Source: Acidobacteriota bacterium (lineage in GTDB: Bacteria; Acidobacteriota; Thermoanaerobaculia; Thermoanaerobaculales; Thermoanaerobaculaceae). Taken from it: 64,000 nucleotides of DNA. Where the stretch lies: the NCBI GenBank assembly GCA_016213675.1, contig JACQZW010000034.1:1-64000 (forward strand), written 5' to 3'. Shown piece by piece: positions 14,931 to 20,372 of this stretch. Each line of letters begins with the position of its first letter. Position 1 is the first letter of the stretch. The notes under the pieces are model-generated. The model was not told where the DNA came from, did not search any database, and saw only the letters and a list, made by a program, of their open reading frames with translations. The translations under genes and the position numbers were made by a program.

Positions 14931-17624
14931 CTAGAACTCGATGCGGAAACCGACCTCGTAGCGGCGCGGGGTCTGCCACGTGTCGGCCTCGCCGAACGCG
15001 TGGTCGCCGCAACCGGTGTCGCTCTCGCAGACGCCGGTGACCTGCTCCTGACCGAACACGTTGTAGATGGTGCCGATCAGCTCGGTGCGGATGGCGCCGA
15101 GCTTGAGCGCGTAGGAGGCCGACATGTCGAGGCCCCAGTTGTCGTTGGCGCGGTAGGAGCCGCGGGGGTCGACGAACTCGTCACCGTAGGGGTCGGCAGC
15201 CGTGGTTCGCGAGTAGGCGAAGCCCGAGGACCAGTAACCGTCGAGGCCGAGCGTGAAGTTGTAGGGCAGCAGCACGTAGCCGTTCAGCTTGACGCGGTGC
15301 CGGCGGTCGTCGGACAGGTAGCCGTAGGTGTTGACGAAGTGAACGGGGTAGACGTCGAAGTCGACGCCGGCGTTCTGGGTGTACTCGACGTTGCCCTCGG
15401 ACTTGGAGTAGGTGTAGGAGGCGAGCAGGTTCAGCCAGTCCTTGGCGCGGGTCTCGAACTTGACGATGACACCCTCGTAGTCGCGCTTGAGGTCGGGCAG
15501 GTTCGCCATGACGTAGTAGTCGCAGGACGCGTCGGCGCTCGGGTTGGTAACGTTGCCGTCGCAGGTGTCCTCGAAGATGTCGCGGGTCTTCTTGTCGATG
15601 TAGGAGACCTCGATCGAGGTGCGGTTGAAGACCTCCTGCTCGTAGCCGATGATCAGCTCGTCGGCGTACGTCGGCTTGAGGTTGGCGGCGATCTCGTTGG
15701 GCAGCGAGCCGAAGATGTCGGCCGAGGGGACCTGGTACCAGCCGTTGGGATCCCATCCGTCGGGTCCCTCGGTCCACGGGCGGCCGAGGCCGGCGGCGTA
15801 GGTCTGGCACTGCTCCGGCGAGGTGAAGCCGCGCAGCGTCGAGCACGAGCGCCAGCGGTACGAGGTGGACAGCGCGGTGCGGGCGAAGTTCGGCAGCGTC
15901 ATGGCGTTCGGGTGCATGAAGCGACCGTACGAGGCCTTGACGAGGCTCTTCGCGTCACCCCTGACATCCCAGGCGATCCCGACGCGGGGCTGCAGCATGT
16001 CCATGTCGGCGATGTCGCTGCCCGAGTTGTTCTGGTAGCTCACGGTGTCGTAGCGCACGCCGAGCTTGACGGTCAGGGTCGGGGTCGGCTTCCAGGCGTC
16101 CTGCAGGTAGCCGGTGTACATCTTTCCGTCGTTCTCGATCGTGCCGGGGTCGCTGTCGAACCACATGAGGTAGGGGATCGAAAGGAGGGGGTCGCCTTCG
16201 CCATACCACCACTCCTCGGTGACGTCGTCGTAACGGTAGCCGTCGGCCGTGGTGTAGTTGTGCGAGCGGAAGAACAGCTTGGAGTACTCGGCGCCGCCCT
16301 TGAACTCGTGGGAGCCGGCGAGCTCGTCGACGAACCACGTCAGGTTGGTCTTGAACTCGTCACGGTTGCGGTCGGAGAACTGGGCGTTGGTGTAGTTGCC
16401 ATAGGCCGTGCCGAGGATGATGTTGGCATGGCCCACGGCATTGTTGCTGCCGGCTGGGTTCGAGTCGAGGCTCGACCGGTTCACACCGATAGAGGTGCTC
16501 CACAGCAGGCTGGGGGACAGGACCCCGTTCAGCTCGGCCTGGTAGATGCTGCCGCCCTGCTCCTGCAGTCTCACGGCGTCGGCGGCGACGTACTCGCTGG
16601 CGTTGGCGTTGTCGATGGTCGCCGGGTCGCCGGAGAGCTTGCCGATGACGCGCCAGTTCGGGCTCACCTGCCAGGTCAGCTTGCCGATGTAGTTCTCGCC
16701 CTCGTACTTGCGGGTGGTCGCGGAACTGACCGGGGTGGTCTGCGAGTCGATGTACTCCCCGGACAGGAAGAACCACAGGTTGTCGCGGATGATCGGGCCG
16801 CCGAAGGTGGCCGACGGGTCGAGGTACTTGACCTTCTGATCGTCCTTGTCGAAGTGGTCGCCGTTCTCGTAGAAGCCGGAGTCGCGGAAGCGGATGTCCA
16901 GCGTGCCCGAGAAGTCGTTGCCGCCCGACTTGGTGACCAGGTTGACGATACCGCCGGTCGCACGCCCGTACTCGGCCTCGAAGCCGCCGGTCTGGAAGGA
17001 GATCTCCTGGATGGCGTCGAAGTTGAAGTTGGTGCCGAAGGTCGCAGTGACCGGGTCGGTGGTGTCGAGACCGTCGATGAAGTAGGCGTTCTCGCCGGAG
17101 GTCGAGCCGAACACGCTCGGGTTGTTGGTGCCGACGACGCCCGGGGCCATGTTGAGCACGCTCTGGTAGCCGCGCCGGGTGGAGCCGATCGCCGCGGTCT
17201 TCAGGAAATCGTTGGAGAACGTCTGCGACGTCGAAACCTGGGTCGGATCGACGACCGGCGTCTCGGCGACGACCGTGATCTCCTCGCCGAACTTCGACGG
17301 CGGCATGACCACGTTGATCTCGGTGGTGCGGTCGAGGCGGACCTCGACGCCGTTGCGCTCCTGGGCGACGAAGCCCGAGAGCTCGGCCTTGATGGTGTAG
17401 ACGCCCGGGGCGAGACCGGGGAACGAGAAGTTGCCGTCGATCTCGGTCACGGCCATCTGGGCGCCGCCGATGAGTGCCGGCGACGCGATCGTCACCGTCA
17501 CGCCCGGCAGGGGGAGCCCGTTGTCGTCGGCCACGGTGCCGGAGAGCTTGCCCGTGGTTCCGGCGAACGCGGCAGACGCCAGCAGCGCCGCCACGACGCC
17601 CAGTAGAACAGCATTCCTCTTCAT
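14931..17624 (-). CDS. TonB-dependent receptor with carboxypeptidase-regulatory-like domain
   Basis: An 897-residue outer-membrane receptor. The signal peptide MKRNAVLLGVVAALLASAAF is followed by a carboxypeptidase-regulatory-like beta-sandwich (residues about 25-105: LSGTVADDNGLPLPGVTV). A plug domain (about 115-240) contains EITVVAETPVV and the motif YFIDGLDTTDP. The large beta-barrel ends in a terminal phenylalanine (GFRIEF), as expected for BAM-assembled porins. This subfamily is expanded in Acidobacteriota, where many substrates are unknown. ATG 17624 follows AAGGAGCAACC. The pseudokinase-TonB gene lies immediately upstream on the same strand. Confidence 0.9.
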   Translation of the reverse strand: MKRNAVLLGVVAALLASAAFAGTTGKLSGTVADDNGLPLPGVTVTIASPALIGGAQMAVTEIDGNFSFPGLAPGVYTIKAELSGFVAQERNGVEVRLDRTTEINVVMPPSKFGEEITVVAETPVVDPTQVSTSQTFSNDFLKTAAIGSTRRGYQSVLNMAPGVVGTNNPSVFGSTSGENAYFIDGLDTTDPVTATFGTNFNFDAIQEISFQTGGFEAEYGRATGGIVNLVTKSGGNDFSGTLDIRFRDSGFYENGDHFDKDDQKVKYLDPSATFGGPIIRDNLWFFLSGEYIDSQTTPVSSATTRKYEGENYIGKLTWQVSPNWRVIGKLSGDPATIDNANASEYVAADAVRLQEQGGSIYQAELNGVLSPSLLWSTSIGVNRSSLDSNPAGSNNAVGHANIILGTAYGNYTNAQFSDRNRDEFKTNLTWFVDELAGSHEFKGGAEYSKLFFRSHNYTTADGYRYDDVTEEWWYGEGDPLLSIPYLMWFDSDPGTIENDGKMYTGYLQDAWKPTPTLTVKLGVRYDTVSYQNNSGSDIADMDMLQPRVGIAWDVRGDAKSLVKASYGRFMHPNAMTLPNFARTALSTSYRWRSCSTLRGFTSPEQCQTYAAGLGRPWTEGPDGWDPNGWYQVPSADIFGSLPNEIAANLKPTYADELIIGYEQEVFNRTSIEVSYIDKKTRDIFEDTCDGNVTNPSADASCDYYVMANLPDLKRDYEGVIVKFETRAKDWLNLLASYTYSKSEGNVEYTQNAGVDFDVYPVHFVNTYGYLSDDRRHRVKLNGYVLLPYNFTLGLDGYWSSGFAYSRTTAADPYGDEFVDPRGSYRANDNWGLDMSASYALKLGAIRTELIGTIYNVFGQEQVTGVCESDTGCGDHAFGEADTWQTPRRYEVGFRIEF

Positions 17625-17881
17625 GGTTGCTCCTTTCTCCTCTGTGGTTCCTCGCCGCCCCATGCGGCGAAATGACGTGCCACCGGTCGGTGGCGAACAT
17701 GTACTATACATCACAAGAGCGTCACAGGCTGCATTTCAGCCACTCGCTCGGCCACCTTACGGGTGGCCCACTCTGAGCAACTTCCGTGCCGGTTTTGGAT
17801 CGTGATCGCAGAGTCTGCCGATCCGCTGGTGTTCGAGAATCCGGATGCGCGGCCGGGCATCCGGATAAATACGAAGAAGCG
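17625..17881. other. Receptor upstream region with palindromes
   Basis: No gene is supported here. It holds ATGTACTATACAT (17699-17711), a near-perfect palindrome containing TATAGT on the minus strand, which could combine a -10 element and an operator for the receptor. A 7-bp stem GGCCACC/GGTGGCC (17750-17768) surrounds TTACG. The region is clearly AT-richer than its flanks, as expected for a regulated promoter. No good -35 is seen. Confidence 0.4.
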
Positions 17882-17904
17882 GCCCGCCGGTGTGACCGGC
17901 GGGC
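17882..17904 (-). terminator. Terminator of the pseudokinase-TonB gene
   Basis: A 9-bp stem GCCCGCCGG/CCGGCGGGC with a 5-base loop lies 25 bases past the stop codon. On the minus strand it is followed by a CTTCTTCGTATTTA tail. Confidence 0.65.
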
Positions 17905-17928
17905 CCCCCGGTTCGTCGTCTCACAGGA

Positions 17929-19866
17929 TCAGCGGGTGCGTGACAGGTCCACCCGCATGGTCACGGTCGCCCACGTCTTCACCTTGACGCCGTCCTTCAT
18001 GCCGGGCTTGAAGCGGTACTGCCGGGCCGCGTCCTGGCAGGCCTCGTCGATCCCCAGCTTGCCGACCGGGAAGCCGCGCATCACCTGGACGTCGTCCACC
18101 GAGCCCTTGTCGTTGACCAGCACGCGGAGGATCACCACGCCCTGGGCGGAGACCTTGGCGGCAACGGCGGCGCGCGGGATGGTCGGCTTGACCTCGACCA
18201 GGGACTGAGGGGTCACGTCGAGCTGCGTGAAGTCCACCATGTCCCCGGGACGGACGGCGCTCGGCGACGTGGTCTCGGCCGGTGGTGCGGTGGCTGGCAC
18301 GATCTCGGCCGGTGCCGAGGTCGGCTGGATCAGCGGCGCCGTCGTCGGTTCGATCGCCAGCGGCCCCGAGGTCGGCTTCGGCGGGACGGCCTGCTGCGCG
18401 ACCGTCGCGACCGGAGGCGGCGCGGCTTGAGGCAACGACGCCGCCTTCACCGAAGCGGCCGCCTCGGCCTTGGCCCGTTCGGCGCGGACCCGGGCGAGCT
18501 CTTCCTCCTTGCGACGCTGCTCCGCGAGTCGGGCGTCGAGCTCGCGCTTCTGCTGTTCGATCCTGGCCTGTTCCTCGGCGGTCAGCGGCTTCTTGCCGGT
18601 GGCCGCGGCCTGCTTCGAGGCTTCCATCTGGCGTTGCATCTCCTCGGTTCGGGCCTTCTCGGCGGCGAGCTGATCGGCGAGGTCCTTCTCCTTCTTGGAG
18701 TACTCGGCGAGCTGCTCCTGGACCAGCTTGGCGATGGTCGCCTGGTCGACCGCCTGCGGAGCGGGACGCCCGAAGAGGAGGTAGGCGATCACCGCCACCA
18801 GCACGGCGACCCCGGCGATCGCGATGTACAGGCCGGTGCGGCTGGGCGGTGGCGCCGGAGCGACCTCGACGGCCGCTGCCGCTGCCGACTCGGAACGTGG
18901 GGCCCGGAAGTAGGGCGTGACGTCGAGGCTCTTCTCGCGCTGTACCTCGCGATCTTCTTCCTCGATCTCGTGGCGGTACAGACGGTCCATGAAGAGCGCG
19001 AGGTTGAACGTCGTCGGCGAGTACGCGCCGCCGTAGAGAAGCTTCTCCAGCTCGCGCTTGAAGTCGGCGGCGGAGCCGTAGCGATCCTCGGGGCGGGGGG
19101 CCAGCGCCTTCTGGACGATGGCCAGCACGTCGGCCGGGACCGGTCCCTCCTCCTGCGCCAGGTGCGGCGCCTGCAGCGCTGCGGCCCGGGCGGCGGACTC
19201 GAGGGGCAGCGGCGTCCCGCACAGGAGCTGGTAGAGGATGGCGCCGAGCGAGTAGACGTCGGAGCGCCGGCTCGGCGTGTGGCTGGCCAGGACCTCGGGG
19301 GCCAGGTATGCCGCCGCCATCTCCTGGACGGCGACCCGGTCGAGGTTGGCGAGCAGCCCGCGGGCGAGGCCGAAGCCGCCCACCAGTGCTTCGCCGTCGT
19401 TCCCGATCAGCACGAGCTGCGGGACCAGGAAGCCGTGCACGAGCGGCTCACCGCGAACCTCGACGGCGAGCGCGGCGGAGAGGGCGGCTGCCATCTTCTC
19501 GGCGATCAGGAGGGCGTTGTCGATGGCGACCGGGAACTGCTCCTGGCCGACCCGCTCGAGGAGCTGGTCGAGGGGTTGCGACGGGACGTAGTCCCACGCC
19601 ACGTAGGGCACCCCGCCCTCGACGCCGCACGCCGCGTTGCGGACCACGTTGGAGGCCCGGAACATCTGCGAGAGCTGGTTGGTCACCGGGACCTCGGCGG
19701 CGAGCGCGGTGCGGTCGAGCCCTACCTGGTCGAAGCGGCGCAGCCAGACGATCCGCTTGAACCCCAGGCGCTCCATCTCGCCGGCGCGCCAGAGCGTGCC
19801 GAAACCGTCCTGCGATCGCTGCTTTAAGAGGAGAAAGTTGCCAAATGAGGTGTACGACGCCGCCAT
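17929..19866 (-). CDS. Pseudokinase-TonB fusion (energy transducer)
   Basis: A 645-residue chimera. Residues about 8-285 have a serine/threonine-kinase fold, recognisable by YLAPE (187-191), RRSDVYSLGAILYQLLCGTPLP (200-221) and DRYGSAADFKREL. Its catalytic residues are lost: the HRDLKPxN loop reads HGFLVPQ (144-150), DFG reads GGFG (163-166), and the beta-3 lysine is not evident (RIVWLRRF, 38-45). A transmembrane helix near 345-366 (GLYIAIAGVAVLVAVIAYLLF) leads to a charged coiled coil, a Pro/Thr-rich spacer and a TonB C-terminal domain (about 565-645: GVVILRVLVNDKGSVDDVQVM). The kinase part would be cytoplasmic and TonB periplasmic. ATG 19866 follows GGGAGG. Confidence 0.88.
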   Translation of the reverse strand: MAASYTSFGNFLLLKQRSQDGFGTLWRAGEMERLGFKRIVWLRRFDQVGLDRTALAAEVPVTNQLSQMFRASNVVRNAACGVEGGVPYVAWDYVPSQPLDQLLERVGQEQFPVAIDNALLIAEKMAAALSAALAVEVRGEPLVHGFLVPQLVLIGNDGEALVGGFGLARGLLANLDRVAVQEMAAAYLAPEVLASHTPSRRSDVYSLGAILYQLLCGTPLPLESAARAAALQAPHLAQEEGPVPADVLAIVQKALAPRPEDRYGSAADFKRELEKLLYGGAYSPTTFNLALFMDRLYRHEIEEEDREVQREKSLDVTPYFRAPRSESAAAAAVEVAPAPPPSRTGLYIAIAGVAVLVAVIAYLLFGRPAPQAVDQATIAKLVQEQLAEYSKKEKDLADQLAAEKARTEEMQRQMEASKQAAATGKKPLTAEEQARIEQQKRELDARLAEQRRKEEELARVRAERAKAEAAASVKAASLPQAAPPPVATVAQQAVPPKPTSGPLAIEPTTAPLIQPTSAPAEIVPATAPPAETTSPSAVRPGDMVDFTQLDVTPQSLVEVKPTIPRAAVAAKVSAQGVVILRVLVNDKGSVDDVQVMRGFPVGKLGIDEACQDAARQYRFKPGMKDGVKVKTWATVTMRVDLSRTR

Positions 19867-19939
19867 GAGCAGATCCTCCCGGGCATCCCCGGCCAAAGCT
19901 AGCACCCGGTCACAGGAAGGTCAACGTCCGGCCGGAGTT

Positions 19940-20359
19940 TCACGACCCCGCTCGTGCCCGTCCCGCCAGGAACGTCTCGAGGATCAACCGGGCCGCGACC
20001 CCGTCGATCACCGAGTCCCAACGTCGCGGCGGGACCCCGGCCTCGCGCAGCAGCGACTGCGCCGCCGCCGTGGTACCACGCTCGTCGACCGTCTCGACCG
20101 GGACGTCGAGAGAGGTGCGCAGCGCCGCGACGACGGCAGCGACGCGCACCTCGCCGCGGCCCTCGCCGCCCCGGGTGACCGGGACTCCGACGACCACGCC
20201 GCCGACCTCGCGGTCCCGGACCAGGACGCCGACCGCGGCGGCGAGAGCCTCGGGACCGTGGAAGGCGAGCGGCGGCAGGGGAGCGACGACGCGCTCGTCG
20301 CCATCGGAGACGGCGACGCCGACGCGGGCGCGACCGACGTCGAGGGCGATCCATCGCAT
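19940..20359 (-). CDS. ruvX: RuvX/YqgF-type Holliday-junction resolvase-like protein
   Basis: A 139-residue RNase H-fold protein: IALDVGRARVGVAVSD carries the first acidic residue, VGVPVTRGGEG is the conserved GLP-loop equivalent, VETVDERGTTAAA carries the second acidic block, and DSVIDGVAARLILE carries the last. The family acts in pre-16S rRNA processing and/or recombination. The start was set to ATG 20359 because a TATGCT element lies exactly 7 bases upstream. It is divergent from the thiolase gene. Confidence 0.85.
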   Translation of the reverse strand: MRWIALDVGRARVGVAVSDGDERVVAPLPPLAFHGPEALAAAVGVLVRDREVGGVVVGVPVTRGGEGRGEVRVAAVVAALRTSLDVPVETVDERGTTAAAQSLLREAGVPPRRWDSVIDGVAARLILETFLAGRARAGS

Positions 20360-20366
20360 GAGCGAG

Positions 20367-20372
20367 AGCATA
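20367..20372 (-). promoter_or_regulatory. Candidate -10 (TATGCT) for leaderless ruvX
   Basis: On the minus strand TATGCT is followed by 7 bases (CTCGCTC) and then ATG of ruvX. No ribosome binding site fits, so the transcript is predicted to start at or next to the start codon. Confidence 0.45.

Follow-up and report, generated by a model that had tools for sequence, protein, structure and literature searches.

The window, a stretch of 64,000 nucleotides of Acidobacteriota DNA, contains on its minus strand a single open frame of 645 codons, beginning with an ATG at 19866 and ending with a stop at 17929. The 645-residue product is built, in order, of a pseudokinase domain, a transmembrane helix, ~ 100 residues of helix, a Pro/Thr spacer and a TonB C-terminal domain (TonB_C). 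Pfam recognizes the kinase domain (Pkinase, E = 4.7e-12, residues 58-263) and TonB_C (E = 1.2e-10, residues 568-637), both exceeding the curated cut-offs, and no further domain, including any gliding-type cytosolic domain as in GltJ/AgmX. The features of the locus are listed below.

14931 to 17714, same strand: TonB-dependent receptor gene, next after the pseudokinase gene
17881 to 17905, minus strand: terminator-like hairpin, 11-bp stem, immediately downstream of the pseudokinase gene (z-score -3.7; T-rich tail weak)
17929 to 19866, minus strand: pseudokinase-transmembrane-helix-TonB_C protein, 645 aa
17947 to 18246, minus strand: TonB C-terminal domain with conserved lead-in, residues 541-640
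18247 to 18438, minus strand: Pro/Thr/Ala-rich spacer, residues 477-540, predicted disordered (pLDDT < 50 over most of it)
18439 to 18744, minus strand: two long predicted periplasmic helices, residues 375-423 and 430-476
18769 to 18837, minus strand: transmembrane helix, residues about 344-366, no His, Arg immediately N-terminal to it
18961 to 19026, minus strand: conserved juxtakinase helix motif AYSPTTFNLALFMDRLYRHEIE, residues 281-302
19027 to 19866, minus strand: pseudokinase domain, residues 1-280, catalytic residues lost
19867 to 19939: gap between the RuvX and pseudokinase genes, the place where relatives have MltG
19940 to 20371, minus strand: RuvX homologue, upstream; relatives have the order RuvX-MltG-pseudokinase, here present without MltG

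The same full-length layout recurs in many other genomes, indicating that it is not a product of chance, of a frameshift or of a chimeric contig. An assembly error joining two genes, raised as a caveat in the first-pass annotation of this DNA, is thereby ruled out as well. The search for kinase-fold and TonB_C fusions in Acidobacteriota which that annotation had proposed yielded many at full length, and the layout is spread across the phylum. At a threshold of E = 1e-25 or better, 79 of 297 sampled Acidobacteriota genomes give a match, a count that represents the maximum for the pseudokinase type, as a few genomes (e.g., G011 and G039) match only via the longer, catalytically intact paralogue described below. 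A search of plasmids returned kinase-domain matches only, and a single GTDB pattern scan covered close relatives.

An AlphaFold2 model built from 45 family members offers a greater level of detail about this architecture. The kinase domain is predicted with a pLDDT of ~ 97 and TonB_C mostly with 90-98; between them lie the transmembrane helix (residues 344-365 in the model), the two long helices and the disordered spacer. The helical pair also gives a weak match to TolA_full (E = 0.0044), which stays under the cut-off of that profile. In Foldseek comparisons, the kinase part matches mycobacterial PknA, PknI and PknE (target TM 0.70-0.78). The C-terminal part folded alone matches TonB C-terminal domains, including that of 1u07, with the best match to 6i97_D of the FoxA-TonB complex (target TM 0.81), and it is closer to TonB than to TolA. 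Pfam, model confidence and fold comparison thus agree on the kinase fold that the first-pass annotation had recognized, and the arrangement of transmembrane helix, Pro/Thr spacer and TonB_C downstream of it is borne out by Pfam and the model. Basic residues directly ahead of the transmembrane helix in most members are compatible with a cytoplasmic N-terminus. The predicted topology remains the one suggested initially, with the dead kinase in the cytoplasm and TonB_C in the periplasm.

Aligned with an intact paralogue, the window protein displays substitutions at all catalytic positions: Gly to Asp in the Gly-loop, Lys to Arg in beta-3, Glu to Thr in alpha-C, HRD to HGF, Leu for the catalytic Asn, and DFG to GFG. 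The replacement of the HRD Asp, DFG Asp and beta-3 Lys noticed at first reading is therefore correct, these positions being occupied by F, G and R, respectively. To place this protein in its family, we aligned the catalytic sites of 51 pseudokinase proteins (one gene occurs twice, leaving 50 distinct) and 13 long paralogues. Neither the HRD Asp nor the catalytic Asn is found in any of the 51; the beta-3 Lys is retained in a single one, with Arg taking its place in 38. The Gly-loop and DFG are degenerate, and the Asp at the DFG position, present in 19 of the 51, never occurs together with the HRD Asp. All of these sites are intact in 13 of the 13 long paralogues. Homologues of the same type with intact HRD and DFG, which would have spoken against a dead kinase, were not seen; those relatives that are intact belong to a paralogous group of their own, which carries an extra receiver domain.

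In a tree of 71 kinase domains, a single branch (support 100/100) separates the 43 pseudokinases from the remaining domains, so that a single label change accounts for their distribution. The dN/dS of the pseudokinase domain is 0.07-0.29, taken only from pairs where it was computable, and in the window's own clade TonB_C is under looser constraint (0.34-0.58) than the pseudokinase half. Catalytic loss common to one clade, combined with low dN/dS, indicates that the loss is old and that the domain is maintained, which rules out a recent pseudogene or decaying kinase. The N-terminal domain is a bacterial pseudokinase, with its fold kept, its catalytic residues gone family-wide and its sequence under purifying selection.

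Certain pseudokinases were later found to be enzymes, and Arg in place of the beta-3 Lys in 38 of the 51 proteins could be taken as a hint at another activity of the fold, such as AMPylation or glutamylation in the manner of SelO or SidJ (the latter mentioned in PMC12599244). However, the Gly-loop, alpha-C Glu, HRD Asp, Asn and DFG are jointly degenerate and vary between clades, unlike a preserved new active site, making a noncanonical enzyme a most improbable explanation.

The strongest conservation in the protein lies directly behind the kinase domain, in the stretch [YF]SPTTFN[LM]A[FY][FY][ML]..L[FY]R.E (residues about 281-302). Across 45 sequences F287 and A290 are invariant and T286 and N288 nearly so, and the dN/dS of the motif is 0-0.12. 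In the AlphaFold2 model it falls within a helix that follows the kinase domain and precedes the transmembrane segment, and the active long paralogue has a related stretch, e.g., PTPTSADLAIYMH. The motif may act as a docking or signal-transmission element. The first-pass annotation did not describe this helix.

The TonB-type C-terminus raises the question whether the protein is an energy transducer. In TonB and TolA, a Ser-X3-His (SHLS) motif of the transmembrane helix provides docking to the ExbB and TolQ motors (PMC12215075; PMC12204202); Ser16 and His20 of TonB touch ExbB, and this His is indispensable (PMC12215075). After setting aside rows lacking a transmembrane segment, one duplicate and two unrelated kinases, we found the transmembrane helix to be free of His in all 49 distinct pseudokinase-TonB_C proteins and in all 12 long paralogues examined, meaning that the SHLS docking motif for ExbB is missing from every one of them. 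The transmembrane His is present in each of five ordinary TonB-type proteins encoded by this genome, including one whose gene lies just upstream of an ExbB. No ExbB or ExbD gene lies beside the pseudokinase gene, which is on contig 8; MotA/ExbB is matched twice in this genome, on contigs 50 and 51. Judged by the helix sequence, canonical docking on ExbB appears unlikely, while other forms of energization are possible, and ExbB/ExbD are not expected to power the protein.

The first-pass annotation had read the gene as a TonB energy transducer, whose pseudokinase head would sense a cytoplasmic ligand and gate ExbB/ExbD-powered action on TonB-dependent receptors, the adjacent one included. Its TonB_C fold is genuine, with TonB bound to FoxA as the best PDB match, an ExbB-like gene lies close to the long paralogue in three genomes, and the gene that comes next on this strand does encode a TonB-dependent receptor. 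That receptor does not behave as a conserved partner, however. In the closest genome (G262), where the protein is 61% identical, it is absent from the locus and Rho follows the gene directly, and in the window the terminator-like hairpin separates the two genes. Synteny and hairpin together rule out an operon with the receptor and leave the proposed gating of it unsupported. With the His missing from every member checked, ordinary His-bearing TonBs available in the same genome and both ExbB-type matches on other contigs, the energy-transducer reading is highly unlikely.

The upstream side of the gene is more uniform among relatives, which display the conserved order RuvX, MltG and pseudokinase gene; in several genomes LptD and a thiolase are encoded divergently from these genes. 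MltG is located directly upstream, codirectional and at short gaps, in 17 of the 20 class-level genomes that have both genes. This context is suggestive, since in Enterococcus faecalis the Hanks kinase IreK phosphorylates MltG directly (PMC12369325). In Anabaena, septal peptidoglycan is shaped by SjdR, which is a TonB-like protein (PMC8262864). The pseudokinase protein could accordingly be imagined as a regulator or anchor of peptidoglycan synthesis working with this lytic transglycosylase. Yet neither G000 nor G262, the two genomes of the window's family, has an MltG match anywhere, and both keep the pseudokinase gene, whereas MltG is present in 36 of 36 other genomes checked. Furthermore, the two genes are unlinked in family f33 (probably Holophagae), 11 genomes have MltG but no pseudokinase gene, and the RuvX-MltG adjacency could be merely inherited synteny. 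The loss of MltG from a family that retained the gene disfavors a dedicated partnership, which we have lowered from main reading to an unlikely one. At one locus of another genome (L074:1543-5600, G200), two tandem pseudokinase-TonB_C genes lie right behind MltG.

A second protein of related layout is encoded in the same genome on contig 13 (C13:28.6-31.5 kb), where a receiver-like domain, an intact kinase, a transmembrane helix and TonB_C are joined in one protein. This long paralogue shares with the pseudokinase protein the kinase fold, the transmembrane helix devoid of His, the spacer and TonB_C, and occurs in the same genomes; it differs in its intact catalytic residues, its extra N-terminal receiver-like domain and its length of about 950 aa. 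We found no name for this type of protein. In most long paralogues, the phospho-acceptor Asp of the receiver domain is replaced by Ser or Thr (e.g., L094:10488-10847), yielding a pseudo-receiver on an active kinase. The sample drawn from the window's family, order and class comprised 33 genomes, in which we scored the long paralogue by alignment of its receiver part. Of the 22 that encode the pseudokinase protein, 19 have the long paralogue as well, and none of the other 11 has it; the resulting p value of 1.9e-6 overstates independence, because all 11 double-negative genomes belong to one genus and there are few independent events. Several genomes outside the class have both proteins. Genomes of family f33 possess the pseudokinase protein and show no recognizable long paralogue by the receiver-part alignment.

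Literature searches found no description of a kinase-TonB fusion, in agreement with the initial impression that no system with this exact coupling had been described. Several known systems resemble the protein in part. TonB of the ExbB/ExbD/TonB system has the C-terminal fold, the Pro-rich spacer and the single transmembrane helix in common with it; here, the transmembrane SHLS His and adjoining ExbBD genes are missing, and a large pseudokinase head and a long helical arm are added. TolA is comparable in its transmembrane helix, long helical domain II and C-terminal binding domain, whereas our protein has a C-terminal fold nearer to TonB, no SHLS His and a pseudokinase head. MviN is a membrane pseudokinase acting as an envelope scaffold. 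EssB/YukC are likewise membrane pseudokinase scaffolds in the envelope (PMC12599244). Both MviN and EssB/YukC differ in having no TonB_C, in belonging to other lineages and in their extracytoplasmic parts. SjdR and the gliding proteins GltJ/AgmX, which are not plain nutrient transducers, combine a cytosolic part, a central transmembrane helix and a periplasmic TonB-like region (PMC8262864), but no kinase is described in the cytosolic part of any of them. Seven families of bacterial pseudokinases (ActPs1-3, GLW, CP1, DYD and DLHK) show a similar loss of catalytic motifs, and their review mentions neither TonB nor Acidobacteriota (PMC12599244). The GLW family also has a C-terminal transmembrane helix, but the HRD position of our pseudokinase proteins reads HG[FVLA] rather than GLW.

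These features can tentatively be best explained by an envelope-spanning pseudokinase scaffold or sensor, as opposed to a nutrient-import component powered by the proton-motive force, a reading that we consider plausible and hold with caution. The pseudokinase would bind a protein partner in the cytoplasm, while the helices and the spacer would carry TonB_C through the periplasm. There, beta-strand addition, the mode used by TonB and TolA, may join TonB_C to an envelope protein, and occupancy or oligomer state might be signaled on to the pseudokinase. In the cytoplasm, the partner would most likely be an active Hanks kinase, and the first candidate for it is the long paralogue, which adds a pseudo-receiver to this layout and is present in most related genomes. 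We further hypothesize, with considerably less confidence, that a kinase/pseudokinase pair, each member bearing a TonB-type periplasmic arm, assembles in the inner membrane and couples Ser/Thr phosphorylation to the condition of the outer envelope, which is possible though rather doubtful at present.

If true, the pair would represent an envelope-sensing system of Acidobacteriota that employs TonB domains as sensors rather than motors. Within one phylum, the TonB C-terminal domain is found combined with a dead as well as with an active kinase-type head, in both cases without the motor-coupling residue. Confirmation of a scaffold or sensor role would render "energy transducer TonB" annotations of such proteins misleading, would add a signaling or tethering use to TonB domains, and would make a bacterial pseudokinase family preserved phylum-wide accessible to testing.

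Two additional observations concern the surroundings of the long paralogue. At L100, L107 and L109, an ExbB-like gene lies near the active kinase-TonB_C gene, and L109 also displays a His-bearing TonB. Directly 3' of the active receiver-kinase-TonB_C gene, a small conserved coiled-coil gene is present at L099:9948-10175 and at 10 of 11 other loci (11 of 12 in all), encoding in most of them a protein of 76-90 aa with the consensus DQQRxFYExTLxVTxxEIxxLKxQIEEELSKVK.
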